Below are positions 284 to 27,855 of a DNA stretch of 40,254 bases, one piece after another (the stretch's first letter is position 1; the number at the start of each line of letters is the position of its first letter). Below the pieces are notes generated by a model, which worked only from the letters and a program-made list of their open reading frames with translations, did not search any database and was not told the DNA's origin. Origin of the DNA: Phycisphaerales bacterium (GTDB lineage Bacteria; Planctomycetota; Phycisphaerae; UBA1845; PWPN01); contig JAAYCU010000374.1 of the NCBI GenBank assembly GCA_012729595.1, positions 1-40,254 of the forward strand, read 5' to 3'. The position numbers and the translations under genes were made by a program.

Positions 284-2008
284 ATGTCGGGTTCTACATT
301 GACCGGCCCGCCGGTTGCTTCGAAGGAAAGGATTATCGTTTTGTTGACGCAAAGCCCGACGATTTCGCGAACCTCGCACGGCCAGACGGCTATTGGATGG
401 TGGATGCCGGATGGCACGCCTCCGGTAACCGATGCGGCCGCCCTGGCGGAGGCTTTACGGCATGTCGGGCGCCCGCTGGCGGTGGTGGATCTGGACGGCC
501 GGACGGCGATCGGATACGGCGGCGCGGCGCGGATTGGGACCGACCCGTCGGCCGAACGAACGGGCCACCCCCTGATGGCCTACGTACCGGCTATCCTACC
601 CGAGCATCTGGGCGATTCAGGCTTTCGTAAGGCGCATGGATTGCGTTATGCCTACGTGGCCGGAGCCATGGCCAATGGAATTACCTCCGAGCGCATGGTC
701 GAGGCCATGGGTCGGGCGGGCATGCTGGGATTTTTCGGCAGCGCGGGCCTGGACCCTCAGCGGGTCACGGCCGCCATCGTGCATATTCAGGAAAACCTCG
801 GCGAGCTCCCCTACGGATTCAACCTGATCCACAGCCCGAGCGATCCGCAACTCGAATCGACCATCGCTGATCTGTATCTTCAGCACGGAGTGCGGCTCAT
901 CGAGGCGTCGGCCTATCTGGATTTGACCTTGCCGTTGGTTCGCTATCGTCTGGCGGGCATTCACGCGACACCTTCCGGCGAAATCGTGGCACCGAACAAG
1001 ATTGTCGCCAAGGTTTCGCGAATCGAGGTCGCCCGCAAGTTTCTCAACCCGCCGCCGACGGCCATGCTCAACGCCCTGGTGCAGAGCGGTTTTATCACCA
1101 CCCAGCAGGCCGGCTGGGCCGAGCGGATTCCGATGGCCGACGATCTCACCGCCGAAGCCGACAGCGGCGGGCATACGGACAATCGCCCCGCGCTGGCCTT
1201 ATTGCCGACGATGTTGGCGCTGCGCGATGAAATCCAGCGCACCCGCAACTATGCCGTTCCGCCACGGATCGGAGCGGCCGGCGGCGTGGCTACGCCCGCT
1301 TCGGTGGCCGCCGCGTTCGCGATGGGGGCGGCCTACGTGCTGACCGGAACGGTCAACCAGGCCTGCCTAGAATCCGGCACCTCGCCGACGGTTCGCGAAA
1401 TGCTCGCTCAGGCCGGTCAGGCCGACGTGATCATGGCCCCGGCCGCGGATATGTTCGAGATGGGCGTAAAGGTGCAGGTGCTTAAATGGGGCACGATGTT
1501 CGCCATCCGGGCTCGGAAACTTTACGACCTGTATCGCGCCTTCGCCGGCCTGGAACAGATTCCCGTCGATCAGCGGACGATTCTGGAGCGCGACTTTTAT
1601 CGATGCACGCTCGAGCAGGTCTGGGAACAGACCGCCCGGTATTTCACGGAGCGCGATCCCGGTCAGATCGCACGAGCCCAGCGCGACCCGAAGCACAAGA
1701 TGGCTCTGGTGTTCCGGGCTTATCTGGGTCAGTCGTCACGCTGGGCGATCAACAACGAACCCAGCCGTAAAGCGGATTATCAGGTATGGTGCGGCCCGGC
1801 CATGGGCGCGTTCAACGAGTGGACGGCCGGTTCGTTTCTGGCGGACGTAAATCGGCGCGACGTGGTAACGGTGGCCATGAATCTGCTGGTCGGAGCGGCG
1901 GCCTTGAGCCGGAGTCATTGGCTGCGGGCCCAGGGTGTTCGGCTGCCGGCCGAGACCCAGACTTTCCGGCCTCGGGAACTGGCCGAACTGGATACCTTGT
2001 TACAATAA
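284..2008 (+). CDS. pfaD: PfaD/Pfa1-like enoyl reductase of a PUFA-type synthase
   Basis: A 574-residue flavin-dependent trans-acting enoyl reductase of the nitropropane-dioxygenase/FabK-like PfaD family. In Pfa systems it reduces the enoyl-ACP made by the megasynthases, presumably in the cytoplasm. Visible marks are GFNLIHSP near residue 178, a Gly-His core A-E-A-D-S-G-G-H-T-D-N-R-P at 291-302, the TIM-barrel phosphate-binding GAAGGVATP at 330-338 and EMGVKVQVLKWGTMF at 392-406. Length fits the family (about 540). The homologous N-terminus (AIGWW...) starts near residue 36, so the true start is upstream of that. ATG 284 has no clear ribosome site, whereas TTG 341 has AAGGAAAGGA 8 nt before it and may be the real start. 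The stop is 23 nt before pfaA; the gene leads the operon as in myxobacterial pfa1. Family assignment is secure; substrate is inferred. Confidence 0.93.
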   Translation: MSGSTLTGPPVASKERIIVLLTQSPTISRTSHGQTAIGWWMPDGTPPVTDAAALAEALRHVGRPLAVVDLDGRTAIGYGGAARIGTDPSAERTGHPLMAYVPAILPEHLGDSGFRKAHGLRYAYVAGAMANGITSERMVEAMGRAGMLGFFGSAGLDPQRVTAAIVHIQENLGELPYGFNLIHSPSDPQLESTIADLYLQHGVRLIEASAYLDLTLPLVRYRLAGIHATPSGEIVAPNKIVAKVSRIEVARKFLNPPPTAMLNALVQSGFITTQQAGWAERIPMADDLTAEADSGGHTDNRPALALLPTMLALRDEIQRTRNYAVPPRIGAAGGVATPASVAAAFAMGAAYVLTGTVNQACLESGTSPTVREMLAQAGQADVIMAPAADMFEMGVKVQVLKWGTMFAIRARKLYDLYRAFAGLEQIPVDQRTILERDFYRCTLEQVWEQTARYFTERDPGQIARAQRDPKHKMALVFRAYLGQSSRWAINNEPSRKADYQVWCGPAMGAFNEWTAGSFLADVNRRDVVTVAMNLLVGAAALSRSHWLRAQGVRLPAETQTFRPRELAELDTLLQ

Positions 2009-2031
2009 ACTGCAAACTGCGGGAGTGACGT

Positions 2032-5000
2032 TTGAGCCGATCGGAAAAGGATTCCGTTGCCTTATCGACCCCCATCGCCGTCGTGGGGATGGGTTGCCTG
2101 TTTCCCAATGCGCAGGGTCTGCACGATTACTGGCGGCTGATCCGCTGGTCGGAGGACGGGGTGCGCGAGGTTCCGTCGACGCACTGGTTGCTCGACGATT
2201 ATTACGACGCCGACCGCGCGGCCGCCGATCGCGTCTACTGCCGGCGAGGCGGATTCTTGTCGCCGACGATATTTGACCCGCTGGAATACGGCATTCCGCC
2301 GGCGGTTCTGGAGGCGACGGACACCGCGCAACTGCTCGGCCTCGTCGTGGCCAAAATGGCCCTGGAAGATGCCGGCTACGGGATGGGCCGGGAATTCGAC
2401 CGTCATCGCACCGGCGTCGTTTTGGGCGTTACCGGTACGCAGGAACTGGTCATCCCGCTGGGCGCACGGCTGGGGCACCCAGTCTGGCGGCGGGCTTTGG
2501 AACGAGCAGGAGTCGACGCCCGTGTGGCCGACGAAGTCGTCCGCGAGATCGGGGATTCCTACGTTCAGTGGAAGGAAAGCTCGTTCCCCGGCCTGCTGGG
2601 CAACGTGGTCGCCGGCCGCATCGCCAATCGGCTCGATCTGCGGGGCACCAACTGCGTGGTGGATGCGGCCTGCGCCAGCTCGCTGAGCGCTTTACATCTG
2701 GCCATGATGGAACTCAGCACCGGCCGGGCGGATATGCTCCTGGCCGGCGGGGTGGATACCCTCAACGACATTTTCATGTTCATGTGTTTCAGCAAGACGC
2801 AGGCCCTTTCGCCGACGGGCGATGCCCGGCCGTTCTCGGACGAGGCCGACGGCACGGTGATTGGCGAGGGCGTGGGCATGCTGGCCCTCAAACGTCTGGA
2901 CGACGCCGAACGCGACAGCGACCGGATCTACGCCGTAATCCGCGGGCTGGGCACGTCCAGCGACGGCCGCTCCGAAAGCATTTACGCCCCGCGGGCCGAG
3001 GGCCAGGCCGAAGCCCTGCGTAACGCGTATCGCTACGGCGGCGTCGAGCCGCGCACCATCGAGCTGCTCGAAGCTCACGGCACCGGCACTATCGTCGGCG
3101 ACGTGGTGGAGTTCGAGGGCTTGCGCAGCGTGTTCCGCGAGAATCAACCAGAGGGGGCCTGGTGCGCGCTCGGGTCGGTCAAATCGCAGATCGGGCATAC
3201 CAAGGCCGCTGCCGGGGTGGCCAGCATGATTAAGGCGGCCCTCGCCCTGCATCACAAGGTCTTGCCCGCCACCATCAAAGTCAAGAAGCCCAACACAAAG
3301 CTTCAGATCGACGGCAGCCCCTTTTATCTGAGTACGCAAACTCGGCCGTGGATAAGCAAAGGCCGACACCCGCGCCGCGCCGGCGTGAGCGCGTTCGGGT
3401 TTGGAGGCAGCAATTTTCACGTGGTCCTCGAGGAATATACGCCCACCAAGCGCGAGCCGGCCTGGGACGGCTCGGTACAGATCGTGCCGTTCGCGGCCGC
3501 CACCCGCGAGGAGCTGATCGCGAAGCTGGAACCATGGATTCAATCGCTGGACAAGGGCTGGAGCGAGCAGGAGTGGGCCTATCATGCGTCGCTCAGCCGT
3601 AATGAGTTTTCCAGCGAACAGACCTGTCGGTTGGTTTTGGTTTTTGAGCGGGACACGGATCGCAAGCAGTTGCTCGTTACCGCCCGGGACACATTGAAGA
3701 GTAAGGGCGATCTGTCTTCGTGGTCGCAGCCGAACATCTTTTTTGGCTCCGGCTCACCGACTGGTGAAATCGCTTTCATCTTCCCCGGCCAGGGCGGCCA
3801 GTATCTACACATGGGCCGCGATCTGGTCTGTATGTTCCCGGAAGCGCATGCGGCCGTCGCCGAGGCCGACGCTCTCGGCAAAAGCGGTGAACGCCTCAGC
3901 GATCTGCTGTATCCGCAACCGGCCTTTGACGCGCAATTGGCCGAACAACAGAAAATCCGTCTGACCGGTACGGACGTAGCCCAACCCGCCATCGGGGCGA
4001 TCAGTCTGGCCATGCTGCGGGTGCTGGAAACCTTCGACGTGCGTCCGGCGATGGTCGGCGGGCACAGCTTCGGTGAGCTGGTCGCGCTGCATGCCGCCGG
4101 CCGGTACGACGACGCCACCCTGCACCGGCTGGCCCAATTACGCGGCCGCCTGATGGCCAAGGGCGACGGCGGGCGCGGGGCCATGCTGGCCGTCCATGCG
4201 CCGCTCAACGCATTGGATCAACTGCTGGCCGATGCCAAGCTGGATGTCGTACTCGCCAATCGAAACACGCCGAATCAGGGCGTGCTCTCCGGCGACACCC
4301 AGGCCATCGAACAGGCTGCCGAGCTTTGTACGCGACAAGGCTGGAAATGCACCCGGCTGCGGGTCTCGGGCGCTTTTCATAGCGCGTTCATGGCCGACGC
4401 CGGCCGGGAATTTCGTCAGACCCTTGAGAAAACCTCCATCGCCGCCGGCGAACGGCCGGTCTACGCCAACCGCTCGGCCGAACCGTATCCCGAAAACGCC
4501 GAAAAGGTGCGCGATCTGCTGGCCGACCAATTGACCGGCCCGGTACGCTTCGTCGAGCAGATCGAGAACATGTACGCCGCCGGGGCCCGCGTTTTCGTGG
4601 AAGCAGGACCGGGCAGAGTCCTGACCGGTCTGGTTAAAGCGATCCTTGGCGATCGGCCGCACCGGGTTATCGCCCTCGACGCCTCGGCGGGAAGGAGTTC
4701 CGGCATCGCCGATCTTGCGAAAGTTCTCGCCCAACTGGCCGCCGACGGCCATGCGGTACAACTGAATCGTTGGGAACGGCCGGTTAAGGCGCCGGTCAAG
4801 GCCAAAATGGCCATTCCACTGTTGGGTACAAATTACCGGGCGGACAAACCGAAGACCCCGGTCGGCAAGCCCGTGGAGAACAAACCAAAATCTGAACGAA
4901 CCACCCCGCCGAGCAGCGCGCGGGCATCAAATGGGAACCCAATAATGAACGAACAACCGAAGAACGATCGGTCCGCACCGGGCGGCAGTCAACCATCGAC

Positions 5001-8000
5001 CAACAGCGATCCCTTGCTCGGTATCTATCAGGTCGTGCAGGAGGGTCTGCGGGCCATGCAGGCTTTGCAACAGCAGACGGCCTCGGCCCATCAACGTTTT
5101 CTGGAAACGCAGGAAACCGCCCACAAGACCTTCCAGATGGTCATGGAACAGCAGCATCGATTGATGGAGCGCGTCCTGGGCCTGCCCGCCACGACCCCCT
5201 CGGTGCAAGCGCCGCCCTCGGTGATGCCGCAACCCAGCAGACCTATCGAAACACCGTCGAACCTGTTCAGTGATATGAATGTGCCGGTGCCGGCACCGAC
5301 ACCCATCACACCGCCCCCGCCGCAGACCGTCAGTCCGGTGGTCGAACTCGCGAGCGCACCTTCGCCGAGTCCGAGCGCCCCGGCCGAACCCACGGCAACG
5401 GACAGCGGGATTTTCGAGCAGACTCTGCTATCGGTCGTGGCGGAACTGACCGGCTATCCGGCGGAGATGTTGAACGCGGATATGGACCTCGAAGCCGATC
5501 TGGGCATCGATTCGATCAAGCGGGTGGAAATCCTGGCGGCCGTGCAGTCGCGATTGCCGACGGCCAAGACGGTGGACTCCGCCTATATGGGCAGCCTGCG
5601 CACCCTGCAGAACATCATCGAATACATGAACGGCACGCCGACGGCCGCGCCGGCACAAGTCAATGAGCCCGTCGCCGCTCCAGCGGTAACATCCGCGGAA
5701 CCGAAGGTGTCGCAAAAAATCGAGCGACGAGTATTGCGAACCGTCGAACTGCCCGCGACGACGGAGGGCAAATGGTTCATCCCCGCCGACCATGAAATCC
5801 TGATAACCGACGACGGCACCGATCTGGCTCGCGAACTGGTCAAAGCCCTGAAGGACCGTGACGTAAGGGCACGCGTGATTCAACCGGATGAGCGTATCAA
5901 CGGCAAGGTCAAGCCGCCGGTTGGCGGGTTGATCCACCTGGGGCGGACGACGGCGGACGAAAACGCCGTCTGGTCGCCGGAAGCCGAGGCACGGCTGAAA
6001 CAGGCTTTTGTCCTGACAAAAAAACTGGCCCCTCGTTTGCGTGCCGCCGGCGGTAAGGGCGGCGCGTTACTGGCGACGGTCTCGCGAATGGATGGCCGCT
6101 TCGGTTTAAGTGGTGGAGGTTTTGACGCCGTTCAGGGCGGTCTGGCCGGTCTGCTTAAAACCGCCGCCCACGAATGGCCCGAAGTCCGCTGCAAGACGTT
6201 GGACGTGGACGGCGACTGGCAGGATGCGCGAACCGTGGCCGAAGCCATCGTCCGCGAATTGACCGCCGACGGCCCGATCGAGATCGGTCTCAGTGAAGCC
6301 GGTCGATTCGGCCTGGAACTCCTCGACGAACCCGCCCCGGCAGGCGAATTGCAGGTGCAAAACGGCGACGTGGTCATCGTGACCGGCGGAGCGCGTGGCG
6401 TAACCGCCGACGCGGCGGCGCTGCTGGCCGAAGCCGGCCAAGCGACATTGATTCTGCTCGGCCGATCGCCGTGTCCGACCGACGAGCCGGCCTGGCTGGC
6501 CGGGATCACCGACGAGGCGGCCATCAAACGCGCCTTGCTCGAAAACGTATTCGCCGGCAGCAAGCCTAATCCCGCGGCCCTAGAGGCCGAATATCGCAAG
6601 CATCAGGCCAATCGCCAGATTCGTGAAACATTGGCCCGGATCACCGCCGCCGGCGGCCAGGCCGTCTATCGCAGCGTGGATGTTCGCGATACGGAAGCCC
6701 TCGCCGCGACCCTCGACGAAGTGCGCCGCGGCGTCGGCCCGATCCGCGGGCTGATCCACGGCGCCGGCGTGCTCGAGGATCACCTCATCGAGGACAAGAC
6801 CGTCGAGCAGTTCGAAAAAGTTTTCGATACCAAGGTTCAGGGCCTGCGCGGGTTGTTGGCCGCCCTGGCGAACGATGATCTGGAGTTCATGGTTTTCTTC
6901 TCCTCGGTAAGCGGGCGGTTCGGCCGGGTCGGGCAGATCGACTACGCCATGGCCAACGAAGTGCTCAACAAAATCGCCCAGCGTCAACGAACCTTGCGCC
7001 CCGGCTGCCGCGTGGTGTCCATCAACTGGGGGCCGTGGGACGGCGGCATGGTCACGCCCGCGTTGAAACGCGAGTTCGAGCGGCTGGGTATCGGCCTGAT
7101 CCCCCTCGACGTCGGCGCGAAATGTCTGCTGGATGAACTCCGTGTCGGCGAACACGCATCGGCCGAAGTCATCATCGGCGGATCGTTCCCGCAAGCGATG
7201 CCTTCGGGGCATTCCGCTCGGCCGGCTTCGGCATCAACCTCAACGTCCTCCGGGAACGGGCAACTGACGACCGTAATGGAACGAACGCTCGACCTCGACA
7301 GTCATCCGTTCCTCGCCTCGCACGTAATCGGCGGCCATCCGGTGTTGCCGGTGGCCATGATGATCGAATGGTTCGCTCATGCCGCGATGCACGGCAACCC
7401 CGGCCTTATGTTCAACGGCCTGGATGATCTGCGGGTGTTCCGCGGCGTGATTTTGAACAACGGGCCGCGTCAGGTGCGTATCGCCGCGTCCCCCGCTCGG
7501 CGGGAGAACGACCTGTACGCCGTGGATATCGAATTGCACGGCCACGGCGACAACGGGCCGGAAGTGCTCCATGCCCGGGCCCGGGTCTGGCTGGCCGACC
7601 AACTGCCCAAGCCGCCGGCGTATGCTTTCGATGCCGCATCGTATGCCCAGACGTATCCGCGAACGGTCGAGGCCATCTATGACGACGTATTGTTTCACGG
7701 CCCGCATTTTCACGCCGTGGAGAAAATCCTCGGCCACTCGCCGGCGGGCATGGCCGCCGAAATGAAACCGGCCGCCACGCCCGGCGAATGGATGAACGTC
7801 CCGCCGCGTACGTCCTGGATCGCCGACCCGCGCATCCTGGATGGCGCTTTACAGCTAGGCGTATTGTGGGGCTTCGAGCATCTCGGCTGCGTCTCCCTGC
7901 CCAGCTTCGGCGGGCGGTATCGCCAATACTGCCGCTCTTTCCCAAGCGGGAACGTGCGTCTGGCCATGGAAGTACGCGAGGCAGGCGAGCACCGCATCAG

Positions 8001-8121
8001 CGCGGATATCGCCGTTCTGGACGACGGCGGACGGCTGCTCGCCCGCCTGGAAAATTATCAATGGACCGCGGATTCCTCCCTGGGCGTCGCGTTCGGACAT
8101 GACGCCGTGGTCAATACCTGA
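2032..8121 (+). CDS. pfaA: PfaA/Pfa2-like polyketide/PUFA synthase, KS-AT-ACP-KR-DH
   Basis: A 2029-residue multidomain lipid synthase. KS (about 8-450) has Cys214, His349 and His389, the complete condensing triad. The malonyl-type AT (about 575-880) has GHSFGE with Ser679. A predicted coiled coil near 1000-1055, rich in Gln and Glu, precedes one ACP (LGIDSIKRVE, Ser1161) between Pro/Ala-rich linkers. The KR (about 1240-1730) shows TGGARGV near 1451 and Tyr1638 of the SDR triad. A C-terminal PS-DH double hot dog (about 1745-2020) keeps His1764 in HxxxGxxxxP and Asp1937 in DxxxQ. The TTG start at 2032 is supported by GGGAG at 2021-2025. Domain order equals PfaA/Pfa2, but known PUFA synthases usually carry several tandem ACPs and here there is one. 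It should act with the flanking pfaD and pfaC products. No phosphopantetheinyl transferase to activate the ACP is present in the window. Confidence 0.93.
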   Translation: MSRSEKDSVALSTPIAVVGMGCLFPNAQGLHDYWRLIRWSEDGVREVPSTHWLLDDYYDADRAAADRVYCRRGGFLSPTIFDPLEYGIPPAVLEATDTAQLLGLVVAKMALEDAGYGMGREFDRHRTGVVLGVTGTQELVIPLGARLGHPVWRRALERAGVDARVADEVVREIGDSYVQWKESSFPGLLGNVVAGRIANRLDLRGTNCVVDAACASSLSALHLAMMELSTGRADMLLAGGVDTLNDIFMFMCFSKTQALSPTGDARPFSDEADGTVIGEGVGMLALKRLDDAERDSDRIYAVIRGLGTSSDGRSESIYAPRAEGQAEALRNAYRYGGVEPRTIELLEAHGTGTIVGDVVEFEGLRSVFRENQPEGAWCALGSVKSQIGHTKAAAGVASMIKAALALHHKVLPATIKVKKPNTKLQIDGSPFYLSTQTRPWISKGRHPRRAGVSAFGFGGSNFHVVLEEYTPTKREPAWDGSVQIVPFAAATREELIAKLEPWIQSLDKGWSEQEWAYHASLSRNEFSSEQTCRLVLVFERDTDRKQLLVTARDTLKSKGDLSSWSQPNIFFGSGSPTGEIAFIFPGQGGQYLHMGRDLVCMFPEAHAAVAEADALGKSGERLSDLLYPQPAFDAQLAEQQKIRLTGTDVAQPAIGAISLAMLRVLETFDVRPAMVGGHSFGELVALHAAGRYDDATLHRLAQLRGRLMAKGDGGRGAMLAVHAPLNALDQLLADAKLDVVLANRNTPNQGVLSGDTQAIEQAAELCTRQGWKCTRLRVSGAFHSAFMADAGREFRQTLEKTSIAAGERPVYANRSAEPYPENAEKVRDLLADQLTGPVRFVEQIENMYAAGARVFVEAGPGRVLTGLVKAILGDRPHRVIALDASAGRSSGIADLAKVLAQLAADGHAVQLNRWERPVKAPVKAKMAIPLLGTNYRADKPKTPVGKPVENKPKSERTTPPSSARASNGNPIMNEQPKNDRSAPGGSQPSTNSDPLLGIYQVVQEGLRAMQALQQQTASAHQRFLETQETAHKTFQMVMEQQHRLMERVLGLPATTPSVQAPPSVMPQPSRPIETPSNLFSDMNVPVPAPTPITPPPPQTVSPVVELASAPSPSPSAPAEPTATDSGIFEQTLLSVVAELTGYPAEMLNADMDLEADLGIDSIKRVEILAAVQSRLPTAKTVDSAYMGSLRTLQNIIEYMNGTPTAAPAQVNEPVAAPAVTSAEPKVSQKIERRVLRTVELPATTEGKWFIPADHEILITDDGTDLARELVKALKDRDVRARVIQPDERINGKVKPPVGGLIHLGRTTADENAVWSPEAEARLKQAFVLTKKLAPRLRAAGGKGGALLATVSRMDGRFGLSGGGFDAVQGGLAGLLKTAAHEWPEVRCKTLDVDGDWQDARTVAEAIVRELTADGPIEIGLSEAGRFGLELLDEPAPAGELQVQNGDVVIVTGGARGVTADAAALLAEAGQATLILLGRSPCPTDEPAWLAGITDEAAIKRALLENVFAGSKPNPAALEAEYRKHQANRQIRETLARITAAGGQAVYRSVDVRDTEALAATLDEVRRGVGPIRGLIHGAGVLEDHLIEDKTVEQFEKVFDTKVQGLRGLLAALANDDLEFMVFFSSVSGRFGRVGQIDYAMANEVLNKIAQRQRTLRPGCRVVSINWGPWDGGMVTPALKREFERLGIGLIPLDVGAKCLLDELRVGEHASAEVIIGGSFPQAMPSGHSARPASASTSTSSGNGQLTTVMERTLDLDSHPFLASHVIGGHPVLPVAMMIEWFAHAAMHGNPGLMFNGLDDLRVFRGVILNNGPRQVRIAASPARRENDLYAVDIELHGHGDNGPEVLHARARVWLADQLPKPPAYAFDAASYAQTYPRTVEAIYDDVLFHGPHFHAVEKILGHSPAGMAAEMKPAATPGEWMNVPPRTSWIADPRILDGALQLGVLWGFEHLGCVSLPSFGGRYRQYCRSFPSGNVRLAMEVREAGEHRISADIAVLDDGGRLLARLENYQWTADSSLGVAFGHDAVVNT

Positions 8122-8135
8122 TCCTTGGTACCCTG

Positions 8136-11100
8136 ATGCGAGATTCTTGTCCCATAGCGATTGTCGGCCTGGGCGGGCTTTTCCCCGGCGCGCCCGATCC
8201 GGCCGCCTTTGCCCGCAACAACCGGGAGAAAATCGACGCCACCCGCGAGGTGCCGCCCGGCCGCTGGATTCTCGACCCGTCCGAGGTTTTCCAGAGTACG
8301 TATACGCCCGACAAGCTGTATTCGTTGCGCGGTTGCTTCGTCGAGGATTTCGTTTTCGACCCGGCGGGCCTGAAACTCGATCCGGCCTTTCTACAGGGGC
8401 TTGATCCGCTGTATCCCATGACCTTGCACGTCGGCCGACAGGCTTTCCACGACGCGGTGACCGGCAATCTCGACCTCCGGAGGGTGGGCGTAATTCTGGC
8501 GGCCATCGCCTTGCCCACCGATGCATCCTCTACTATCACGCGGCGCATCCTGGGCCGGGCGTTCGAGGAAAAGATTCTCGGCCGCGCCGATGATTCGCCT
8601 TTATTCGACGCCGAATGCTCACCGCTGAACAGTCAGGTCACCTCGCTTCCGGCGGCGCTGCTGGCCGACGCTCTCGGCCTCGGCGGCGGGAGTTACACGT
8701 TGGACGCGGCCTGCGCGTCGAGCCTCTACGCGATCAAACTGGCTTGCGAGGAACTACGCGCGGGGCGGGCCGACGCCATGTTGACCGGCGGCGTGTCCCG
8801 ACCGGAATGTTTGTACACGCAGATGGGCTTCAGCCAGTTACGGGCCTTGTCGCCGTCAGGCTGTTGCCGGCCTTTCGAGGCCCGAGGCGATGGTCTGGTG
8901 GTCGGCGAAGGGGCCGGCATGATGCTGCTCAAGCGGTTGGACGACGCCTTGCGCGACGGAGACCGCGTCTACGCGGTGATCCGCGGGATCGGATGGTCCA
9001 ACGATACGGCCGGCAGCCTGCTGGCCGCCGATTCCGAAGGTCAGTTACGGGCCATGCGCCTGGCCTACGCCGAGGCCGGCTGGCAACCGCACGAAATCGA
9101 CTACATCGAAGGCCACGGCACGGGCACGCCGGTCGGCGACGCCGCGGAACTCGAGAGCCTGCATTTATTATGGAAAGATGCGCCCTGGCAGCCGGGACAA
9201 TGCGCCCTCGGATCGGTCAAGTCGATGGTCGGCCATCTGCTGACCGCGGCCGGGGCGGCCGGGCTGATCCGTACCGTACTGGCGATGAACGGAGGCTGGC
9301 TTCCGCCGACGGCGAATTTCGAGCAACCGGCCGACGCCCTTGCCCGTAGCAAGAATCCATTCCGCGTATTGACCACGGCTGAACCGTGGAACCGCCGCGA
9401 CGATCAAACCCCCCGCCGGGCGGCGATCAGCGCTTTCGGGTTCGGTGGAATCAATGCCCATGTGCTGGTGGAGGAATGGGATCCGGCGCTCGTGCGGTTT
9501 TCCGCTTCGCACCGGCGAGACGCCGGGGAGGTGTTTAGCGATACACAAAGCCCGTCGGCGACGCTCATCGGAACCCCAAGCGCAAGCGCGGGGCCGACGC
9601 GGGCGAAATCTTCCGTACTCGGCGAGGCGCACGACACCGACCCACTCGCTTGCGCTCGGGGTTCCGATTCCAGACACCGGCCCACAAACTTGCGCACGGA
9701 ATTTCGATCACATAGGTCGCTCAATACACACGATGCCGATACCACACCCCTTTCCGGAAATGCTCTCGGCATCGAGGAATGCAAGGATGCGCCTGTGCCC
9801 ATCGCCATCGTCGGCATGGAGACGCGCTTCGGGCGGCTCGAATCGTTACGCGAATTTCAGGAAACGACCCTGGCCGGCGATTCGATCGTGGAAAGCCGGC
9901 CCGCACAGCGCTGGCGGGGTGGCGACGAGCCGGCCCGACGCTGGTTGGGCGTCGATACGCCCGGAGCATTTATCAACGACGTTTCCATTCCCATCGGCCG
10001 CTACCGTTTGCCGCCCAACGAAATCCCCGAGGCCCTGCCTCAACAACTGCTGATGCTCCAGACCGTGGATCAGGCCCTGGCCGACGCGGGTTTGACTGAA
10101 CGGCAACGCCGCGAGCGGGCCGGTGTGATCGTGGGTATGGCTTTGGACCTGAATACCTCCAACTTTCATTTCCGGTGGGTACTCGAACGGCAGGCCCGGA
10201 CGTGGGCCGCCCGCCTCGGCCTGAATCTGACTGAGGCACAATTCCAGAGCTGGGTCGATCAGCTCCGCGCCCAAGCCAGCGAGCCGCTCAACGCCGGGCG
10301 CGTGCAGGGTTCGCTTGGCGGGTTGATCGCCAGTCGCATCGCTCGCGAATTCGGTTTCGGCGGGCCGAGTTTCACCGTTTCGGCGGCCGAGGCTTCGGGG
10401 TTGCGGGCCTTGGAGATCGGCGTCCGGTCCTTGCAGCGAGGCGAACTGGACCTGGTCGTGGTCGGCGCGGTGGACCTGTGCGGCGATGTCCGCTCGATCT
10501 GTTGCACGCACGCCTTGCGCGCGTACTCGCGAACGGGGCAGGCCCGGCCGTTCGACATGCGGGGCGGCGGCGGTACGATCGGCGAAGGAGCGGTAGCTCT
10601 GGTCTTGAAACGACTGCCCGACGCCCAGCGCGACGGGAATCGCGTATACGCCGTCGTCCGCGGTCTCGGGTTCGCCGGCGGATCGAAACAGGGATACCCA
10701 AGCGAACAGGCTTACCGCGCGGCCATCGAGCGAGCCTGCGCCGACGCGAAGGTCGATCCGCGAACCATTCACTACCTCGAAACCCACGGCAGCGGCGAAC
10801 CGACGGAGGACCGCATCGAAGGCCGCGCGTTGCTCGATTATTTCACGTCGGCCGGGACGCGGCTATGTGCGTTAGGTTCGGTGAAAGCCCATATCGGGCA
10901 TACCGGCTCGGCCGCCGGGTTGGCCTCGGTCGCCCGGGCCGCGCTGTGTCTCTATCAGGAAATGATTCCACCGCTGCCCGATTTCATGGCCGGGCCGAGC
11001 GATCTGGACTGGGGCGAGACGTTTCACCTGCCGCGTTTCCCGCAAAGCTGGCTGCGCGATCGGGCCGACGGCCCCCGCCGCGCGGGAGTCAGCGCCCTCA

Positions 11101-14100
11101 CCATCGATGGACTTTGCGGCCACGTAGTTCTCGAAGCTGCCGAGCAGACGGCCGATACCTTCACCGTCGAACGCCGCCAACCGCTGGGAGCCCGCCGACC
11201 GGCGATCTTCGCGGTGGAAGGCGACGACGTAGCCGCCCTGCTGGCCGGGTTGGACGCGTTGCAAGCGTTTCTGAATCAACATGACGGCCCTATCGAGCCT
11301 CTCACCCGCGCGTGGCATGGCCAGTATCACGGCAAACGTAAACACCGCCGCGCGATAGCGTTATTATCCGGCGACGCCGAACACCTTCGTTCCGCGACGG
11401 CCGCCGCCCGCTATGCCCTGCGCAACGATCCCGACACGGCCATCGAAGGTCGCGACGGCATCTACTATTCGCCCGAACCGCTGGCCGATCAGGGCGAACT
11501 GGCCTTCGTATTTCCCGGATCGGGCAACCATTACCTCGGCATGGGCCGGGGGATCAGCACGCACTGGCCGGAAGTACTACGCAACCTCGACCATGAATCG
11601 CAACGCCTTGCCAGTCAGATGATGCCGCGCTGGTATATGCCCTGGCGGTCCACATGGGAACCGGGCTGGGAAGCCGAAGCCGCCGCCGCGATCAACGCCG
11701 AATACCTGCGAATGATCATGGGCCAGGTCGCACACGGCGTGGCCATGAGCGATTTGCTGCGCATGTTGGGCTTGCGGCCGAAAGCGGTGATCGGTTACAG
11801 CCTCGGCGAGACGACCAGCCTGTTCGCCTTGCGCGCTTGGCGCGATCGGGATGAAATGCTGCGGCGGATGAGTGAATCGCCTCTGTTCCAGACCGATCTG
11901 GCCGGGGCCTGTTTGGCCGCCCGCAAGGCCTGGGGCCTGTCCACGGACGAATCGGTCGATTGGCGAGTGGCGGTGGTGAATCGGCCGGCCGACAAGGTCC
12001 GCCGCGCCGTCGCCCGGGTCAAGCATGCTTATTTACTGATTACCAACGCACCGGACGAATGCGTCGTCGGCGGCCACTGGCAGGCCGTCGAAAAGGTCGT
12101 CCGTAAACTCAAATGCGACGCCTTCAATCTCAACGGGGCGGCCACCGTGCATTGCGACGTGTTCCGCGAGGCCGAGAGCGCCTACCGTCACCTGCACCTG
12201 TTGGAAACCACCCCGCCGCCGGGCGTACGTTTCTACAGTTGCGCGTGGGCCCGGGCTTACGACCTGGACAGCGACAGCGCGGCCGCCTCGATCGTGGCCC
12301 AGGCCCTGCGTGGTTTCGACTTCCCCGCCACCATCGAGCAGGCCTATGCCGACGGCGTGCGCCTTTTCGTCGAGCCGGGCCCGCAGGCCTCGTGCAGCCG
12401 CATGATCGATAAGATTCTCGGCCCGCGGCCACACCTGGCCCGCTCCGCCAGCCTCTTCGGCCAGGATGAAGTCACCACTGTCCTCAAATTGCTCGCCGCG
12501 CTCGTTACCGAACGGGCGATCACCGACCTTACTCCGCTATACGGACAAGAAACCCGCGTGGTGGCCCATCGTTTGCCGGACACGAAAGATTCATCACGGC
12601 CCAGTATTATTGTTGCCACCGGCAGAGCCGCCCTTGATACCAAGATTGCCATCGATTTCCGGAATGCGTTCGATGCTGGCGTGACTGGGACAACGCCCGG
12701 CGAGTTGGGATTGAAGGTGCCGCCCTATCACGCACCCCAACCGCCATCCGGCCGAGTGCGTCAACCGCTATCGCTTTCCACGCCGACGCCCAGAGCTGAT
12801 GTCGAAGCGGCGTACACCGCCGATACTCTGGCCGCCGATGTCGTCCGCACCGGCCGGGTGGATGCGCAAGCCCACGAATCTTTTCTACGATTCAGCCAGA
12901 CTGCGACGGAAGGCACCGGCTACGCCCTGGCCCTTCAGGCCCGGTTGCTGGAAGTCATGGGCGGCCGTCTCGATCAGCTTCCGCGACCCGCAAGCCATGG
13001 GCCCACGGTATCGCCGACCAGACCCACGGCGCCACCCCCGGCGTATCCTCGCGAGCTATGCATGGAATTCGCCATCGGCTCGCTGGCGAAAGTGCTCGGT
13101 CCGGAGTTTGCTATTGTCGATAGTTATCCCGTGCGCGTTCGTCTGCCCGACGAACCGCTGATGCTCGTGGACCGTATCGTCAGCGTCGCCGGCGAAAAAG
13201 GCGCGCTCACCTCCGGCCAGGTGGTCACTGAACACGACGTGCTACCCGGCGCGTGGTATCTCGATAACGACCGCTGCCCGACGTCGATCACCATCGAGGC
13301 CGGCCAGGCCGATCTGTTCCTCTGCTCGTATCTCGGCATCGATCTGGCCGTCAAGGGTAAACGGGCCTATCGCCTGCTCGACGCGACGGTCACTTTCCAC
13401 CAGGGCCTGCCCCGTCCCGGCCAGGTCATCCACTACGATATCGCCATCGAGCGTTTCATCCGCCAGGGCGACGTGTATCTGTTCTTCTTCCGCTTCCAGG
13501 GTTCCATCGACGGCCGTCCGGTCGTGACCATGCGCGACGGCTGCGCAGGATTTTTCACGCCCGAGGAAATCCGCGATTCCGGCGGGATCGTGCTGACCGC
13601 CGAGGAACGCAAGCCCGCCGCCGGCCGTCGCCCCGACGACTGGTCCGAACTGGTGCCCATGGCCGTCGAGTCCTACGACGAAAAACAGATCGACGCCCTG
13701 CGCAACGGCGATCTGGCCGGCTGCTTCGGTTCGGCCTTCGCCGGCTTGGATCTGCAAAACCCGCCACGCTTGCCCGGCGGGCGGATGCGCCTCGTGCATC
13801 GCGTCGCCCGCATCGATCCGCGTGGTGGACGTTATGGCATGGGCCTGATTCGCGCCGAGGCCGATATCCACCCTGACGACTGGTTCCTCACCTGTCATTT
13901 CGTCGACGACATGGTCATGCCCGGCACGCTGATGTACGAATGTTGCCTGCACACCTTGCGGATTTACCTTCTGCGCATGGGCTGGATCGGCGAGCACGAT
14001 CAGATCGCTTACGAGCCGCTGCCCGGCATCTGGTCGGAACTGCGCTGCCGCGGCCCGGTCACGCCGCAAACCCGCATGGTCACTTACGAGGTGCAGATCA

Positions 14101-15536
14101 AGGAATTCGGCTACAACCCCGAGCCGTACGTCATCGCCGACGCCTTCATGTACTCCGACGACAAGATGACCGTGTATTTCAAGGATATGGCCTTGCGGAT
14201 CGCCGGCCTGAGCCGGGAGCAGATCGAAAACCTTTGGCGTGAACGGCCGTCGCCGGTCACGCCGATCGGCGAAACAGTCCCCGATCTTTCCCGAAAGCCG
14301 GCCGTCTTTGATACCGATCGCATTCTGGCTTTTGCCGTCGGTAATCCTTCCGAGGCTTTCGGTGAACCCTATAAGATGTTTGATCGTGACCGGCGCATGG
14401 CCCGGCTGCCCGGTCCGCCGTACAGCTTCATCACCCGGATCACCGAAACGAACGCCCGACCCTGGCAGCTTGAAAGCGGCGGCTGGGTCGAGGCCCAATA
14501 CGACGTGCCGCCGGACGCCTGGTATTTCCGGGCCAACCGTCAAAGCTCGATGCCCTTCAGCATCCTGCTGGAGATCGGCCTGCAAACCTGCGGGTTCCAG
14601 GCCGCCTTCATGGGCTCCGCTTTGCATAGCGATAGCGATCTGTTCTTCCGCAATCTCGGCGGCACCGGCACGCAATACGCGGAAGTCTTTCCCGACGCGG
14701 GCACCCTGACCACCCGGGCCCGGGCAACCGGCGTATCCAAGGCCGGCGGCATGATTATCGAGGAATTCGACCTGCAGGTCTGGCGCGGGTCGCAACTCGT
14801 CTACAACGGACATACCAACTTCGGCTTTTTCACCGAATCGGCCCTGGCCCAACAGGTCGGCATCCGCAACGCCGCGGAACGGGCCTATGTGCCATCCGAA
14901 TCCGAGCGCCAACGCGGCCGCCGGATCGTTCTCGAACAGATTCCGCCACTGACTCCCGATGACGGCCCCATAGAGCCTGATTTTGCGGAAAACTGTGGCA
15001 ACGACGCCTCGCCGGTGCGGACACAGGCGAGACGCCTGTGCCACACCGAGCCGGATCAGCTTGTACCTCCCGACCCGGCCGCCGCCCTGCCCGCCCGCGC
15101 CCTGTTGATGATCGATGAGGTTGACCTGTTCATCCCCGACGGCGGGCCTCACGGGTTGGGATACATTCACGGCATCAAAAAGGTCGATCCCGACGAATGG
15201 TTCTTCAAGGCCCATTTCTATCAGGATCCCGTCTGCCCCGGCTCGCTGGGCCTGGAATCGTTTCTGCAACTGCTCAAGGTCGTCGCCCTCGAGAAATGGG
15301 GCCGCACGCTGGGCAACACGCATCGCTTCACGCCGATCCTGATTGGCGCCGCCCACCGCTGGCAGTATCGCGGCCAGATCCTTCCCACCGGCCAGCTCGT
15401 GGAAGTCGAGGCTGTCGTTGCCGAAATCCGCGAATACCCCACCCCCCTCGTCAAAGCCGACGGCTTCCTCAAAATCGACGGAACCGTAATTTACGAAATG
15501 CTCGATTTCGGTGTTATAATGGTTCCCGTGGATTAG
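8136..15536 (+). CDS. pfaC: PfaC/Pfa3-like synthase, KS-CLF-AT and four hot dog domains
   Basis: A 2466-residue synthase. KS1 (about 6-450) has Cys193, His327 and His367. A CLF/KS2 domain (about 553-1000) has Glu752 where the Cys should be, but keeps His884 and His922. An acyltransferase (about 1120-1440) has GYSLGE with Ser1222. Four FabA-like hot dog units follow: HD1 (about 1665-1810, EAGQADLFLCSYLG), HD2 (His1921 in CHF, MPG), HD3 (about 2070-2250) and HD4 (His2360 in AHFYQDPVCPGSLGLE). By analogy with PfaC these form two double-hot-dog dehydratases, with HD2 and HD4 catalytic. Carrying the AT here instead of in a separate PfaB is the myxobacterial Pfa3 plan; the C-terminal AGPAT seen there is missing. 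The start is 14 nt after pfaA stops, with no strong ribosome site, suggesting translational coupling. Linkers at about 478-511 and 2287-2304 are made of palindromic repeat DNA. Confidence 0.92.
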   Translation: MRDSCPIAIVGLGGLFPGAPDPAAFARNNREKIDATREVPPGRWILDPSEVFQSTYTPDKLYSLRGCFVEDFVFDPAGLKLDPAFLQGLDPLYPMTLHVGRQAFHDAVTGNLDLRRVGVILAAIALPTDASSTITRRILGRAFEEKILGRADDSPLFDAECSPLNSQVTSLPAALLADALGLGGGSYTLDAACASSLYAIKLACEELRAGRADAMLTGGVSRPECLYTQMGFSQLRALSPSGCCRPFEARGDGLVVGEGAGMMLLKRLDDALRDGDRVYAVIRGIGWSNDTAGSLLAADSEGQLRAMRLAYAEAGWQPHEIDYIEGHGTGTPVGDAAELESLHLLWKDAPWQPGQCALGSVKSMVGHLLTAAGAAGLIRTVLAMNGGWLPPTANFEQPADALARSKNPFRVLTTAEPWNRRDDQTPRRAAISAFGFGGINAHVLVEEWDPALVRFSASHRRDAGEVFSDTQSPSATLIGTPSASAGPTRAKSSVLGEAHDTDPLACARGSDSRHRPTNLRTEFRSHRSLNTHDADTTPLSGNALGIEECKDAPVPIAIVGMETRFGRLESLREFQETTLAGDSIVESRPAQRWRGGDEPARRWLGVDTPGAFINDVSIPIGRYRLPPNEIPEALPQQLLMLQTVDQALADAGLTERQRRERAGVIVGMALDLNTSNFHFRWVLERQARTWAARLGLNLTEAQFQSWVDQLRAQASEPLNAGRVQGSLGGLIASRIAREFGFGGPSFTVSAAEASGLRALEIGVRSLQRGELDLVVVGAVDLCGDVRSICCTHALRAYSRTGQARPFDMRGGGGTIGEGAVALVLKRLPDAQRDGNRVYAVVRGLGFAGGSKQGYPSEQAYRAAIERACADAKVDPRTIHYLETHGSGEPTEDRIEGRALLDYFTSAGTRLCALGSVKAHIGHTGSAAGLASVARAALCLYQEMIPPLPDFMAGPSDLDWGETFHLPRFPQSWLRDRADGPRRAGVSALTIDGLCGHVVLEAAEQTADTFTVERRQPLGARRPAIFAVEGDDVAALLAGLDALQAFLNQHDGPIEPLTRAWHGQYHGKRKHRRAIALLSGDAEHLRSATAAARYALRNDPDTAIEGRDGIYYSPEPLADQGELAFVFPGSGNHYLGMGRGISTHWPEVLRNLDHESQRLASQMMPRWYMPWRSTWEPGWEAEAAAAINAEYLRMIMGQVAHGVAMSDLLRMLGLRPKAVIGYSLGETTSLFALRAWRDRDEMLRRMSESPLFQTDLAGACLAARKAWGLSTDESVDWRVAVVNRPADKVRRAVARVKHAYLLITNAPDECVVGGHWQAVEKVVRKLKCDAFNLNGAATVHCDVFREAESAYRHLHLLETTPPPGVRFYSCAWARAYDLDSDSAAASIVAQALRGFDFPATIEQAYADGVRLFVEPGPQASCSRMIDKILGPRPHLARSASLFGQDEVTTVLKLLAALVTERAITDLTPLYGQETRVVAHRLPDTKDSSRPSIIVATGRAALDTKIAIDFRNAFDAGVTGTTPGELGLKVPPYHAPQPPSGRVRQPLSLSTPTPRADVEAAYTADTLAADVVRTGRVDAQAHESFLRFSQTATEGTGYALALQARLLEVMGGRLDQLPRPASHGPTVSPTRPTAPPPAYPRELCMEFAIGSLAKVLGPEFAIVDSYPVRVRLPDEPLMLVDRIVSVAGEKGALTSGQVVTEHDVLPGAWYLDNDRCPTSITIEAGQADLFLCSYLGIDLAVKGKRAYRLLDATVTFHQGLPRPGQVIHYDIAIERFIRQGDVYLFFFRFQGSIDGRPVVTMRDGCAGFFTPEEIRDSGGIVLTAEERKPAAGRRPDDWSELVPMAVESYDEKQIDALRNGDLAGCFGSAFAGLDLQNPPRLPGGRMRLVHRVARIDPRGGRYGMGLIRAEADIHPDDWFLTCHFVDDMVMPGTLMYECCLHTLRIYLLRMGWIGEHDQIAYEPLPGIWSELRCRGPVTPQTRMVTYEVQIKEFGYNPEPYVIADAFMYSDDKMTVYFKDMALRIAGLSREQIENLWRERPSPVTPIGETVPDLSRKPAVFDTDRILAFAVGNPSEAFGEPYKMFDRDRRMARLPGPPYSFITRITETNARPWQLESGGWVEAQYDVPPDAWYFRANRQSSMPFSILLEIGLQTCGFQAAFMGSALHSDSDLFFRNLGGTGTQYAEVFPDAGTLTTRARATGVSKAGGMIIEEFDLQVWRGSQLVYNGHTNFGFFTESALAQQVGIRNAAERAYVPSESERQRGRRIVLEQIPPLTPDDGPIEPDFAENCGNDASPVRTQARRLCHTEPDQLVPPDPAAALPARALLMIDEVDLFIPDGGPHGLGYIHGIKKVDPDEWFFKAHFYQDPVCPGSLGLESFLQLLKVVALEKWGRTLGNTHRFTPILIGAAHRWQYRGQILPTGQLVEVEAVVAEIREYPTPLVKADGFLKIDGTVIYEMLDFGVIMVPVD
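9567..9668. repeat. Palindromic repeat element 1 read in frame inside pfaC
   Basis: Arms at 9567-9588 and 9647-9668 are 22-nt inverted repeats with a single mismatch; the core is CCCCAAGCGCAAGCG against CGCTTGCGCTCGGGG, and the arms enclose 58 nt. The 102-nt span is a whole number of codons and encodes an odd linker (LIGTPSASAG ... DPLACARGSDS) between the KS and CLF domains. The low-complexity, Ser/Arg-rich translation is unlike the domains on either side. It resembles REP-like or MITE-like mobile palindromes that can enter genes without breaking the frame; that family assignment is inference. Confidence 0.75.
14994..15045. repeat. Palindromic repeat element 2 read in frame inside pfaC
   Basis: The core hairpin at 15022-15040 is CACAGGCG, loop AGA, CGCCTGTG, a perfect 8-bp stem. 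An outer TGTGGC (14994-14999) is complementary to GCCACA (15040-15045), and the left half (CGCCTCGCC near 15005) echoes the core imperfectly. It is translated as a linker (NDASPVRTQARRLCHTE) between HD3 and HD4. Its sequence differs from element 1, so two unrelated palindrome types sit in linkers of one gene. I recall similar ACAGGCGAGACGCCTGT-type palindromes dispersed in planctomycete genomes, but could not check this. Confidence 0.68.
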
Positions 15537-24966: not shown

Positions 24967-27855
24967 TCAACGTCCCGAATCGGGACCAACCGTGGCCGCT
25001 GTTTGCAGTTCGTCCAGGGCCTGTCGCAACGCCGCCCGCTGCTCGGCCGGCGCAACGATATAGCGTACTATCTCGTTGATCTCCACAATTCGCCGATCGC
25101 CCTCGTAAACCACCGGCTCGATCCCCCCCAGGAAATCCATGACCTGTACCGCCTCGCCCAGGTCGGCCAGCGGCAACCGCTCGGGAGCCATCCCGAAAGG
25201 ACGCCATGCGGCGACCACTGCCCGCCCATCGTCCTTTTCGTAATATAACAGCCGCCCCGTCCCGGGAAGATCGATCCACCGGCGCAAGGTCGCATCGTTC
25301 AACAGGCTACTCATCCGCTCAAACGCGACCAACGCCGGCCGTGGCGAATAATCCAGCTCATGCAAACGGCGATGATTATCATCATACAACGAACGAGGAG
25401 GCGACAATGCCGCCGCATCGCATCCAACGAACCGAACGGCCGCCACCGATTGAATCAGAACAGACCGCACCATTCGCGATGCCGAACGTAACGGATCCGC
25501 CGCATCAGCCAGACGCTGGGCAACCGGGACCGCCAATTCTACCGACTGAGCCGGCCGTGGAGACGAGCTGCCCAGCCGGACGGGAACCGCCAGGTTCGCC
25601 AGCATCATCTTCTCCCCAGCCTCCGAACGTAACGATTCCAGCAACGATTCGTTTTGCTCCGGTATGACCCGCTCGTAGGATGTGACCGCGACTACATCCT
25701 TAACAGAACTCTCGGGCACAGTCACTCCGTCTCCCACGGATTGATAGCGGATCAACAGCGCGTCCGGAAACCTGTCTTCCAGCAGACCCCGTACCCAGAC
25801 GAGCTGTTCGCTGAATTCCGCTTCCGGCTGGGTGGAAATAGCCGGCGGAGCCAAGGCCACCGCCAACAGAGGGGCATCGTAATTCACCAACATCTGCCGG
25901 GCATACCATTCCCAAACCGGCCGGGTTAGGGGCAACGCCAAACCGGCAACCAGTTGTACCTGAGCCATTCGACTCAGGGCGCCGATCTCTTGCCAAATCG
26001 CGAAGTCGTATTCGTTCGCCGTCGCCCGTAAACGACCGGCAGGTATTTCCACGTATACCCACCCCGCTCCTAACTGCGTTGTACGCAGGGAAATATTGGA
26101 CTGATCCGCCGTCAGGCCGAAAACGTTATTCAAGGGCACGGGAGCATTCTGAGCAATTACCGCCATGCCAAGCGAACTCTGCGAAAGAATGCTCGACAGA
26201 CCCGGCTCTCCGTCCCAGAGGGTAGCCCATATCCGATAAAAGCCACGCGGAAGAGACAGGCTGATGTTCTCGTCATAGGGAACGCCCGCCGGAACCTGCG
26301 GAGAGCTGGTGCGCGTCCAGACCACCCGGTCCCAGGCATCGAGAATATCCAAGGCCAACTGCCCCACCGGGAAGGTAGACACCGCTTGTTGCGAAGGATC
26401 ATCCTTTTCCGTGGATTCCGGTTGGCTGGTCGTCACCGGTCGGTCGACGACATCTTTCGGGTCATGATCCTTGACTATACGGATTCCGAACGTTACCGCC
26501 GCATCCTCGTCGATGAGATTGATCAGGTCCGCGACATCGGCACTTGGGCCGATTAAGCCCAGTTCGATCGGTGACGGGCGGACATACGCGGCCTCAATCG
26601 GAACATTTGTCAGACAAACCGCGTCCAGACGACATAGCTCCGACTCGTAGGCACCCTCGCCCAAAAAATCGAAACTCAGCTCGGCAAAGGACAACTCGCG
26701 AATTTGTTCGAACGATTGCGCCGTAGCGAAAAAACGCCCCGCATACCGCCGCCAACCGGGTGAAATCTCAAAATTCAATCGCCCCAGAATGCGCCCGCGG
26801 GTACGTAGCGTAACCGTCAGATTCACCGGCCGCTCGCTCTGGGACCAGAAACTCAGGTGGTACCAGTTGCCGGCCTCTCCTGTCGCCATCGCCAGATTGT
26901 TCAGGTCCAGCGGACCGAAAGCCACGCGTGCAATCTCGTCCTGCAGATAAATCAGTAGCGACTTGTCGCCGGAGACACTCCCCCCGTCAAACGCCCAACG
27001 AAGCGGAGCAACTCGCTCGTCGCCGTTGGGCCAACGCCCCAGGCGGCAACCGTAAAAACTATCCGAACCGACTTCGAAATCCCCGCCCCGAACCGCATTC
27101 ACTACCGACGTGGATGCCTGACGACGAATCAGCTCGGCCGGCCCCAGCGTGCCAAGGGCCGCCAGATTCGTTTCCGTGATTGCAATCCGATCCACGGTCA
27201 GCATCGCCCCGGGCCGCTCGGCATATATACAAATGGTTAGCGAACTGAGTTCCGGCTCGAAACGCAACCACCAGCTCTGGGTTTCCCAGCCAGGAGTCAC
27301 GTCGGCCGTTAGCGGCAGTGGTATTTCAAATTCCCGCCCGTCCCGGTCCCGGACCCGTATCGCGAAAACAATCTTGCCCAAAGCTTCCGCCCGGCGTTCC
27401 GAGCGGCAGGTAAACCGCAAATCCAGCCTTACCTCCCGACCAGCCAAGGGCGTGGTATCGAGGTTTTTCTCCAGACCACACCGCCCCCCGGCCGCCTCCG
27501 GTACGGTCAATTCCAGACCCTTAGCACCGTCAATGTGTACGGGGCTGACCATGGCCGACCCAATCACCCGCCAGCCTATGATCTGCTGCTCCGAAACATC
27601 CTCGAACTCATCAACGAATAACTCGCTGGGGGAAAAATCGGGGGGTACATGCCGCTTACGGGCGTAGGCACTCATGCGCCCTACCACTGGGATCCAATTA
27701 CTCTGACGAAGATCGCGTATCTCGGCCGGGGCATCGGGATACATCAGCCCGCCAGCCAAAGAGGGCACGGCCGCCGGAGGCGCCTCGCAACCGGCGAACA
27801 TTACCCCCGCTACCGCGAGCAGCCCCATGGTCCTCTTCAATCCGCGAATCCTCAT
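24967..27855 (-). CDS. Large secreted lipoprotein, unknown function
   Basis: A 962-residue protein I do not recognise as a named family. It opens with a lipoprotein signal (LLAVAGVMFAGC, Cys23). An N-terminal part (about 75-240) and a second (about 255-430, with GNWYHLSFWSQS and an SPGWRRYAGRF strand) have the beta-rich look of galactose-binding or CenC-like carbohydrate-binding modules. The region from about 590 (AGWVYVEIPAGRLRATANEYDF...) with repeated beta/alpha units resembles a TIM-barrel glycoside hydrolase fold, with no catalytic acid identified. Its start codon overlaps the stop of the glycosyltransferase gene (ATGA, 27852-27855), so the two are translationally coupled, hinting at a shared role in surface or exported polysaccharide. 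These fold guesses are low confidence. Confidence 0.75.
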   Translation of the reverse strand: MRIRGLKRTMGLLAVAGVMFAGCEAPPAAVPSLAGGLMYPDAPAEIRDLRQSNWIPVVGRMSAYARKRHVPPDFSPSELFVDEFEDVSEQQIIGWRVIGSAMVSPVHIDGAKGLELTVPEAAGGRCGLEKNLDTTPLAGREVRLDLRFTCRSERRAEALGKIVFAIRVRDRDGREFEIPLPLTADVTPGWETQSWWLRFEPELSSLTICIYAERPGAMLTVDRIAITETNLAALGTLGPAELIRRQASTSVVNAVRGGDFEVGSDSFYGCRLGRWPNGDERVAPLRWAFDGGSVSGDKSLLIYLQDEIARVAFGPLDLNNLAMATGEAGNWYHLSFWSQSERPVNLTVTLRTRGRILGRLNFEISPGWRRYAGRFFATAQSFEQIRELSFAELSFDFLGEGAYESELCRLDAVCLTNVPIEAAYVRPSPIELGLIGPSADVADLINLIDEDAAVTFGIRIVKDHDPKDVVDRPVTTSQPESTEKDDPSQQAVSTFPVGQLALDILDAWDRVVWTRTSSPQVPAGVPYDENISLSLPRGFYRIWATLWDGEPGLSSILSQSSLGMAVIAQNAPVPLNNVFGLTADQSNISLRTTQLGAGWVYVEIPAGRLRATANEYDFAIWQEIGALSRMAQVQLVAGLALPLTRPVWEWYARQMLVNYDAPLLAVALAPPAISTQPEAEFSEQLVWVRGLLEDRFPDALLIRYQSVGDGVTVPESSVKDVVAVTSYERVIPEQNESLLESLRSEAGEKMMLANLAVPVRLGSSSPRPAQSVELAVPVAQRLADAADPLRSASRMVRSVLIQSVAAVRFVGCDAAALSPPRSLYDDNHRRLHELDYSPRPALVAFERMSSLLNDATLRRWIDLPGTGRLLYYEKDDGRAVVAAWRPFGMAPERLPLADLGEAVQVMDFLGGIEPVVYEGDRRIVEINEIVRYIVAPAEQRAALRQALDELQTAATVGPDSGR

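Follow-up and report, generated by a model that had tools for sequence, protein, structure and literature searches.

Described Pfa-type systems

In Shewanella, acyl chains pass from the acyl carrier proteins (ACPs) of the Pfa synthase to OleA, which condenses them in pairs, and OleBCD complete the 31:9 hydrocarbon (PMC6463001). Geobacter bemidjiensis makes hentriacontanonaene, the same compound as that of Shewanella, and Type I clusters, including that of Gemmata, were proposed by Shulse and Allen in 2011 to feed ole genes (PMC3098273). In gammaproteobacteria, PfaB is a terminal acyltransferase (PMC12895367), and in myxobacteria an AGPAT domain marks the Pfa3 protein (PMC8436480).

The window analysed here, meaning the whole stretch of 40,254 bp, is one entire contig (C363) of a planctomycete MAG (G000; 4.12 Mb in 406 contigs, 97.3% complete). 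Three intact open reading frames at 284-2008, 2032-8121 (TTG start) and 8136-15536 run in one direction on the plus strand with 23 and 14 bases between them, and encode an FMN enoyl reductase (ER; pfaD), a PfaA-type protein and a PfaBC fusion. The contig starts 283 bp upstream of the ER, within a dispersed repeat (1-125, unstranded) that occurs about 27 times in the genome in almost identical form, mostly at contig starts. This repeat of ~125 bp carries the palindrome GCGGCCGAAGGCCGC near its end and interrupts the assembly of many contigs. No PPTase, thioesterase or AGPAT was found on C363, as the first-pass annotation had stated for the surroundings of the cluster; this absence holds for the contig only, because its upstream side ends so close to the ER in the repeat. 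Most other genes on the contig are ordinary ones (HerA helicase, RecG, MgtE, DHDPS, PdxJ, OmpA). Also encoded there, both on the minus strand, are a 962-aa protein with zero Pfam matches (24967-27855) and one of 690 aa in which a BACON-type domain is weakly recognisable (38152-40224).

Domain organisation of the Pfa proteins

The ER (574 aa) matched NCBIfam TIGR02814 with 616 bits against a cut-off of 449, and its nearest solved structures were PfaD 6lkc and 4yx6. The PfaA-type protein (2029 aa) reached 1466 bits with TIGR02813 (cut-off 1010). Pfam revealed in it the order KS-MAT-ACP-KR-PSDH, comprising a KS at 2068-3441 with intact DAACASS, EAHGTGT and GHTKAAAG motifs, a malonyl acyltransferase (MAT) at 3757-4671 (GHSFGE), a single ACP domain at 5407-5646 (LGIDS, Ser1161), a ketoreductase (KR) at 6373-7131 (YAMAN) and a PKS-type dehydratase (DH) at 7261-8070 (HxxxGxxxxP, DxxxQ).

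The PfaBC fusion (2466 aa; KS-CLF-AT-DH-DH according to Pfam and NCBIfam) begins with a KS at 8145-9485 (DAACASS, EGHGTGT), whose region matched the PfaA model of NCBIfam and whose best solved relative was 6riw. The chain length factor (CLF) at 9816-11255 reads VSAAEASG in the region of the catalytic Cys and is thus devoid of this residue, as expected of a CLF. It is followed by a PfaB-like acyltransferase (AT) at 11436-12545 with a GYSLGE motif (active-site Ser1222), a candidate terminal acyltransferase that scored 85 bits with TIGR02816, under the cut-off of 144. Four FabA hot-dog domains complete the protein, two of which carry the FabA His motif; the "DHs" of PfaBC are two double hot-dogs, each made of a pseudo and an active unit, namely DH1 at 13056-14255 (HFVDDMVMPG) and DH2 at 14286-15533 (HFYQDPVCPG). 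No Pfam match to AGPAT was obtained in PfaBC, where the last FabA domain coincides with the end of the protein.

Catalytic motifs were found intact across every expected domain of the three proteins; both the PfaD-family ER and PfaA scored over the curated cut-offs, and a KS-CLF pair is combined with FabA-type DH/isomerase domains. We conclude that positions 284-15536 encode a complete PUFA-synthase-type (Pfa-type) enzyme, which belongs to a real, widespread kind and is no new kind of system. The first-pass identification of a Pfa-type synthase in a planctomycete, with the domain order ER, KS-AT-ACP-KR-DH and KS-CLF-AT-DHs, was thereby confirmed.

Tandem ACPs are usual in Pfa-type synthases; their number varies and is not strictly defining. 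In the window PfaA, Pfam and a motif check yielded one ACP and no tandem repeats of it. Since the relatives G058, L087, G015 and G034 also possess a single ACP, this is considered a trait of some members and no bar to membership. As a rule, a dedicated PfaE-type (Sfp-type) enzyme activates the ACPs of Pfa synthases. The myxobacterial systems have theirs, pfaE, at a separate locus (PMC8436480). In the host MAG, at 97.3% completeness, no Sfp-type PPTase was found, and the sole PF01648 match was an AcpS of 127 aa (C99:7279-7662). The combination of a single ACP with an AcpS-type enzyme as the only PPTase found is odd.

Gene order and phylogeny of the enoyl reductase

A PfaD alignment run against 84,980 species genomes revealed at least 547 relatives, the best 80 of which were kept. 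Among these best 80, the loci long enough to be judged nearly always showed the order ER, PfaA, PfaBC; the matches listed with this order came from Geomonas, Geobacter, Limnoglobus (Gemmataceae), Phycisphaerae, Acidobacteria, Eremiobacterota, betaproteobacteria and Verrucomicrobia. In the Desulfobacterales listed, the ER was followed by PfaA, often with a small gene in between. The ER-first arrangement prevails in a large clade that includes Desulfobacterota, Geobacter, Gemmataceae, Phycisphaerae and others, and that is near the Type I of Shulse and Allen. What had been described in the first-pass annotation as a myxobacterial-style order does match pfa1-pfa2-pfa3, but it is no myxobacterial signature, because the order is common among the listed relatives of many phyla; in addition, AGPAT is absent.

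In the ER tree, built without sequences from Aetherobacter or Sorangium, the window ER grouped with genomes of its own order (SH-aLRT 90; inner order weak) and shared a single large branch with those of Geomonas, Geobacter and Gemmataceae, the inner branches of which were weak. Outside this planctomycete/desulfobacterial/Geobacter branch lie the gammaproteobacterial PfaDs of solved structure and the thraustochytrid ER, and the window ER does not fall within the gammaproteobacterial one.

Directly upstream of pfaD, ispH (LytB) was present in 14 relatives, including G018, G019, G042 and L087, and the ispH of the host was located on a separate contig (G000:C278:11982-12920). Joining C278 to the start of C363 was considered and rejected, as the two have no common ends and another gene follows ispH on C278. 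In family f8 and the host family, pfaD-positive genomes have a higher-scoring ispH type than pfaD-negative ones, which looks as though ispH had travelled together with pfa.

The oleABCD operon and its pairing with pfaD

On contig C151 of the host genome, oleA, oleB, oleC and oleD form a single operon. Host OleA scored 477 bits with its NCBIfam model (cut-off 285), has 64% identity to the OleA of a relative and is related to X. campestris OleA (3fk5). It carries the active-site Glu and Cys and fits the published OleA signature EPxx[AS]x(14,18)DxxNACL (PMC7158056). On the minus strand of C151, oleB was found at 7417-8331, oleC at 5768-7423 (olefin beta-lactone synthetase match) and oleD at 4737-5771 (2-alkyl-3-oxoalkanoate reductase match), the latter two under their equivalog cut-offs. 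The starts of C151 and C363 have 124 bp in common; because this sequence is the dispersed repeat with its ~27 copies in the genome, adjacency of the two contigs is not demonstrated.

In eight relatives, an OleA-family gene lies directly after pfaBC, with oleABCD in this order in G058, G034 and G042. The PfaC of G058 (contig G058:C195; L031 8265-13913) has an open frame without an AT domain, and oleABCD lie directly downstream of it. Judged from this arrangement, the loss of the AT next to an adjoining oleABCD speaks for OleA as a sufficient outlet in that organism. In G246, G344, G282, G302, G249, G323, G197 and the Gemmataceae G362, G367 and G383, the OleA match was split into two parts of a single open frame, mostly of ~390-430 aa, with an insert near residue 220-235. 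G383 is the genome of Limnoglobus roseus PX52, a cultured planctomycete whose locus L140 has an ER of this kind; the two parts of its OleA match showed 51-56% identity.

Among the 61 genomes of the host's order, the 22 with pfaD were exactly the 22 with an OleA of 57-66% identity, and none of the other 39 had one (Fisher test, 4.5e-17, ignoring shared ancestry); OleD was present in 21 of the 22. Across the 292 genomes of the phylum, a close OleA, taken as about 49% identity or more, was found in 40/44 genomes with pfaD versus 1/248 without, shared ancestry again being ignored; the remaining four pfaD-positive genomes have no close OleA. OleA was also found in 47 of the 50 genomes, from many phyla, behind the scanned loci (from the best 80 of at least 547 relatives). 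In a tree of 63 OleAs, the 37 from pfaD-positive genomes, including Geomonas and Geobacter, and that of the exception G185 formed one clade with a support of 100/100, and X. campestris OleA and the OleAs of the remaining pfaD-negative genomes were placed outside. OleA and ER distances were correlated (Mantel r = 0.87, p = 1e-4). This tight pairing of Pfa with a Pfa-specific OleA clade is new here, and, being near-perfect, points to polyunsaturated hydrocarbons, and not to PUFAs, as a main output of this branch.

Proposed pathway and alternative readings

In the proposed pathway, the MAT would load malonyl onto the one ACP of PfaA, and the chain would be extended by the KS and the KS-CLF, while the KR, the PKS-type DH and the two FabA-type DH/isomerase units would reduce it and place the double bonds, and the stand-alone ER would saturate selected cycles. 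OleA, encoded on C151, would take a finished or intermediate polyunsaturated acyl chain off the ACP and condense two such chains head to head. The beta-keto acid would be reduced by OleD, the beta-lactone closed by OleC and the decarboxylation carried out by OleB, yielding a hentriacontanonaene-type olefin, long and polyunsaturated. We assign this route, from Pfa acyl chain through OleA and OleBCD to olefin, a probability of roughly 75%; the product is thus likely to be a long-chain polyunsaturated hydrocarbon, not a lipid of a new kind. The transfer of the acyl chain to OleA, the size of the chain, its number of double bonds and an extra exit to phospholipids via the internal AT are inferred. 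Owing to its resemblance to PfaB, this AT is another candidate for chain release and may provide such an outlet.

Several observations count against the hydrocarbon product. In the host, pfa and ole are on separate contigs; AcpS is the only PPTase found, against the Sfp-type enzyme usually needed by Pfa ACPs; the internal AT could release chains to membrane lipids; and the four pfaD-positive genomes without a close OleA stand beside counts that ignore shared ancestry. The locus could also be read as a PUFA synthase proper, whose PfaB-like AT would release EPA/DHA-like chains to membrane phospholipids, with Ole as a side branch or acting on fatty acids of type II FAS. The function of the gammaproteobacterial PfaB, the intact GYSLGE motif and the retention of the AT in most relatives are in line with this. 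However, OleA accompanies pfaD almost without exception, the partner OleA clade is separate from the OleAs of pfaD-negative genomes, and G058 has kept pfa and oleABCD without the AT, so that we consider this reading rather unlikely.

The first-pass annotation had left release step and product open and had considered a distinct secondary-lipid system, which would imply an unknown head group or release route encoded upstream, past the contig end. The break of the contig in the repeat just before the ER and the AcpS-type enzyme as the only PPTase found would leave room for it. This reading was weakened because oleABCD is present in the genome and a close OleA tracks pfaD in the order and the phylum. 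Moreover, the neighbourhood in relatives, with ispH upstream in 14 of them (on another contig in the host) and oleA or housekeeping genes downstream, suggested no tailoring pathway, which makes a distinct system highly improbable. That the cluster is decayed or mis-binned and has no product in this host is hardly credible, even though pfaD and partner-type OleA, and likewise pfa together with this ole set, are missing from the other 12 genomes of the host family, and the pfa region has 64% GC versus 58% in the rest of the contig. Against this, the reading frames and motifs are all intact, and GC3 equals that of the neighbouring genes; as a sign of recent transfer, this composition does not decide. 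RecG on C363 had its closest counterparts in the host family (mostly 64-68% versus ≤55% elsewhere), as did AspS on C151 (mostly 75-81% versus ≤63% elsewhere); therefore, both contigs are regarded as truly the host's own and mis-binning was rejected. The absence from the 12 family members means gain in the host or loss elsewhere.

Extended beyond this host, the hydrocarbon reading would make the Pfa enzymes of Planctomycetota and of the wider ER-first clade, spanning several phyla, dedicated hydrocarbon synthases. Their normal release would proceed via the Pfa-specific OleA subfamily and not via a phospholipid acyltransferase, the AT having been lost in at least one single-ACP relative; we regard the chances of this generalisation as evenly balanced. 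Through the OleA pairing, many Pfa clusters long listed as "product unknown" now have a candidate product that can be tested, and polyunsaturated hydrocarbons may be widespread among planctomycetes and desulfobacteria.

Comparison with known systems

The heterocyst glycolipid synthase of Type F (hgl; PMC3098273) likewise has KS, CLF and AT fused on one protein, but is without DH/isomerase domains, whereas the window has two DH units. The myxobacterial Pfa1-Pfa2-Pfa3 of Aetherobacter and Minicystis (PMC8436480) agrees with the window in the succession ER, KS-MAT-ACP-KR-DH and KS-CLF-AT-DH; unlike it, the window has no AGPAT domain and no Sfp-type PPTase was found with it. With the Shewanella Pfa-OleABCD system (PMC6463001), the host has in common a Pfa synthase and a full OleABCD set in one genome. 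It differs in that PfaB is fused into PfaC, that pfaD stands first and not last as in Shewanella, that the ER lies outside the gammaproteobacterial branch, and that its olefin product is a predicted one.

Type I (Geobacter, Desulfuromonas, Gemmata; PMC3098273) displays the same pfaBC fusion, and the loci of Geomonas, Geobacter and Gemmataceae, over the stretches covered, have the same order of ER, PfaA and PfaBC. The window differs in having one ACP, as opposed to 2-5 in these loci, and its ole genes on another contig. As in Type I, ole genes are present in the same genome, and the host OleA is in one clade with that of Geobacter; the window cluster fits the proposal that Type I clusters feed Ole.
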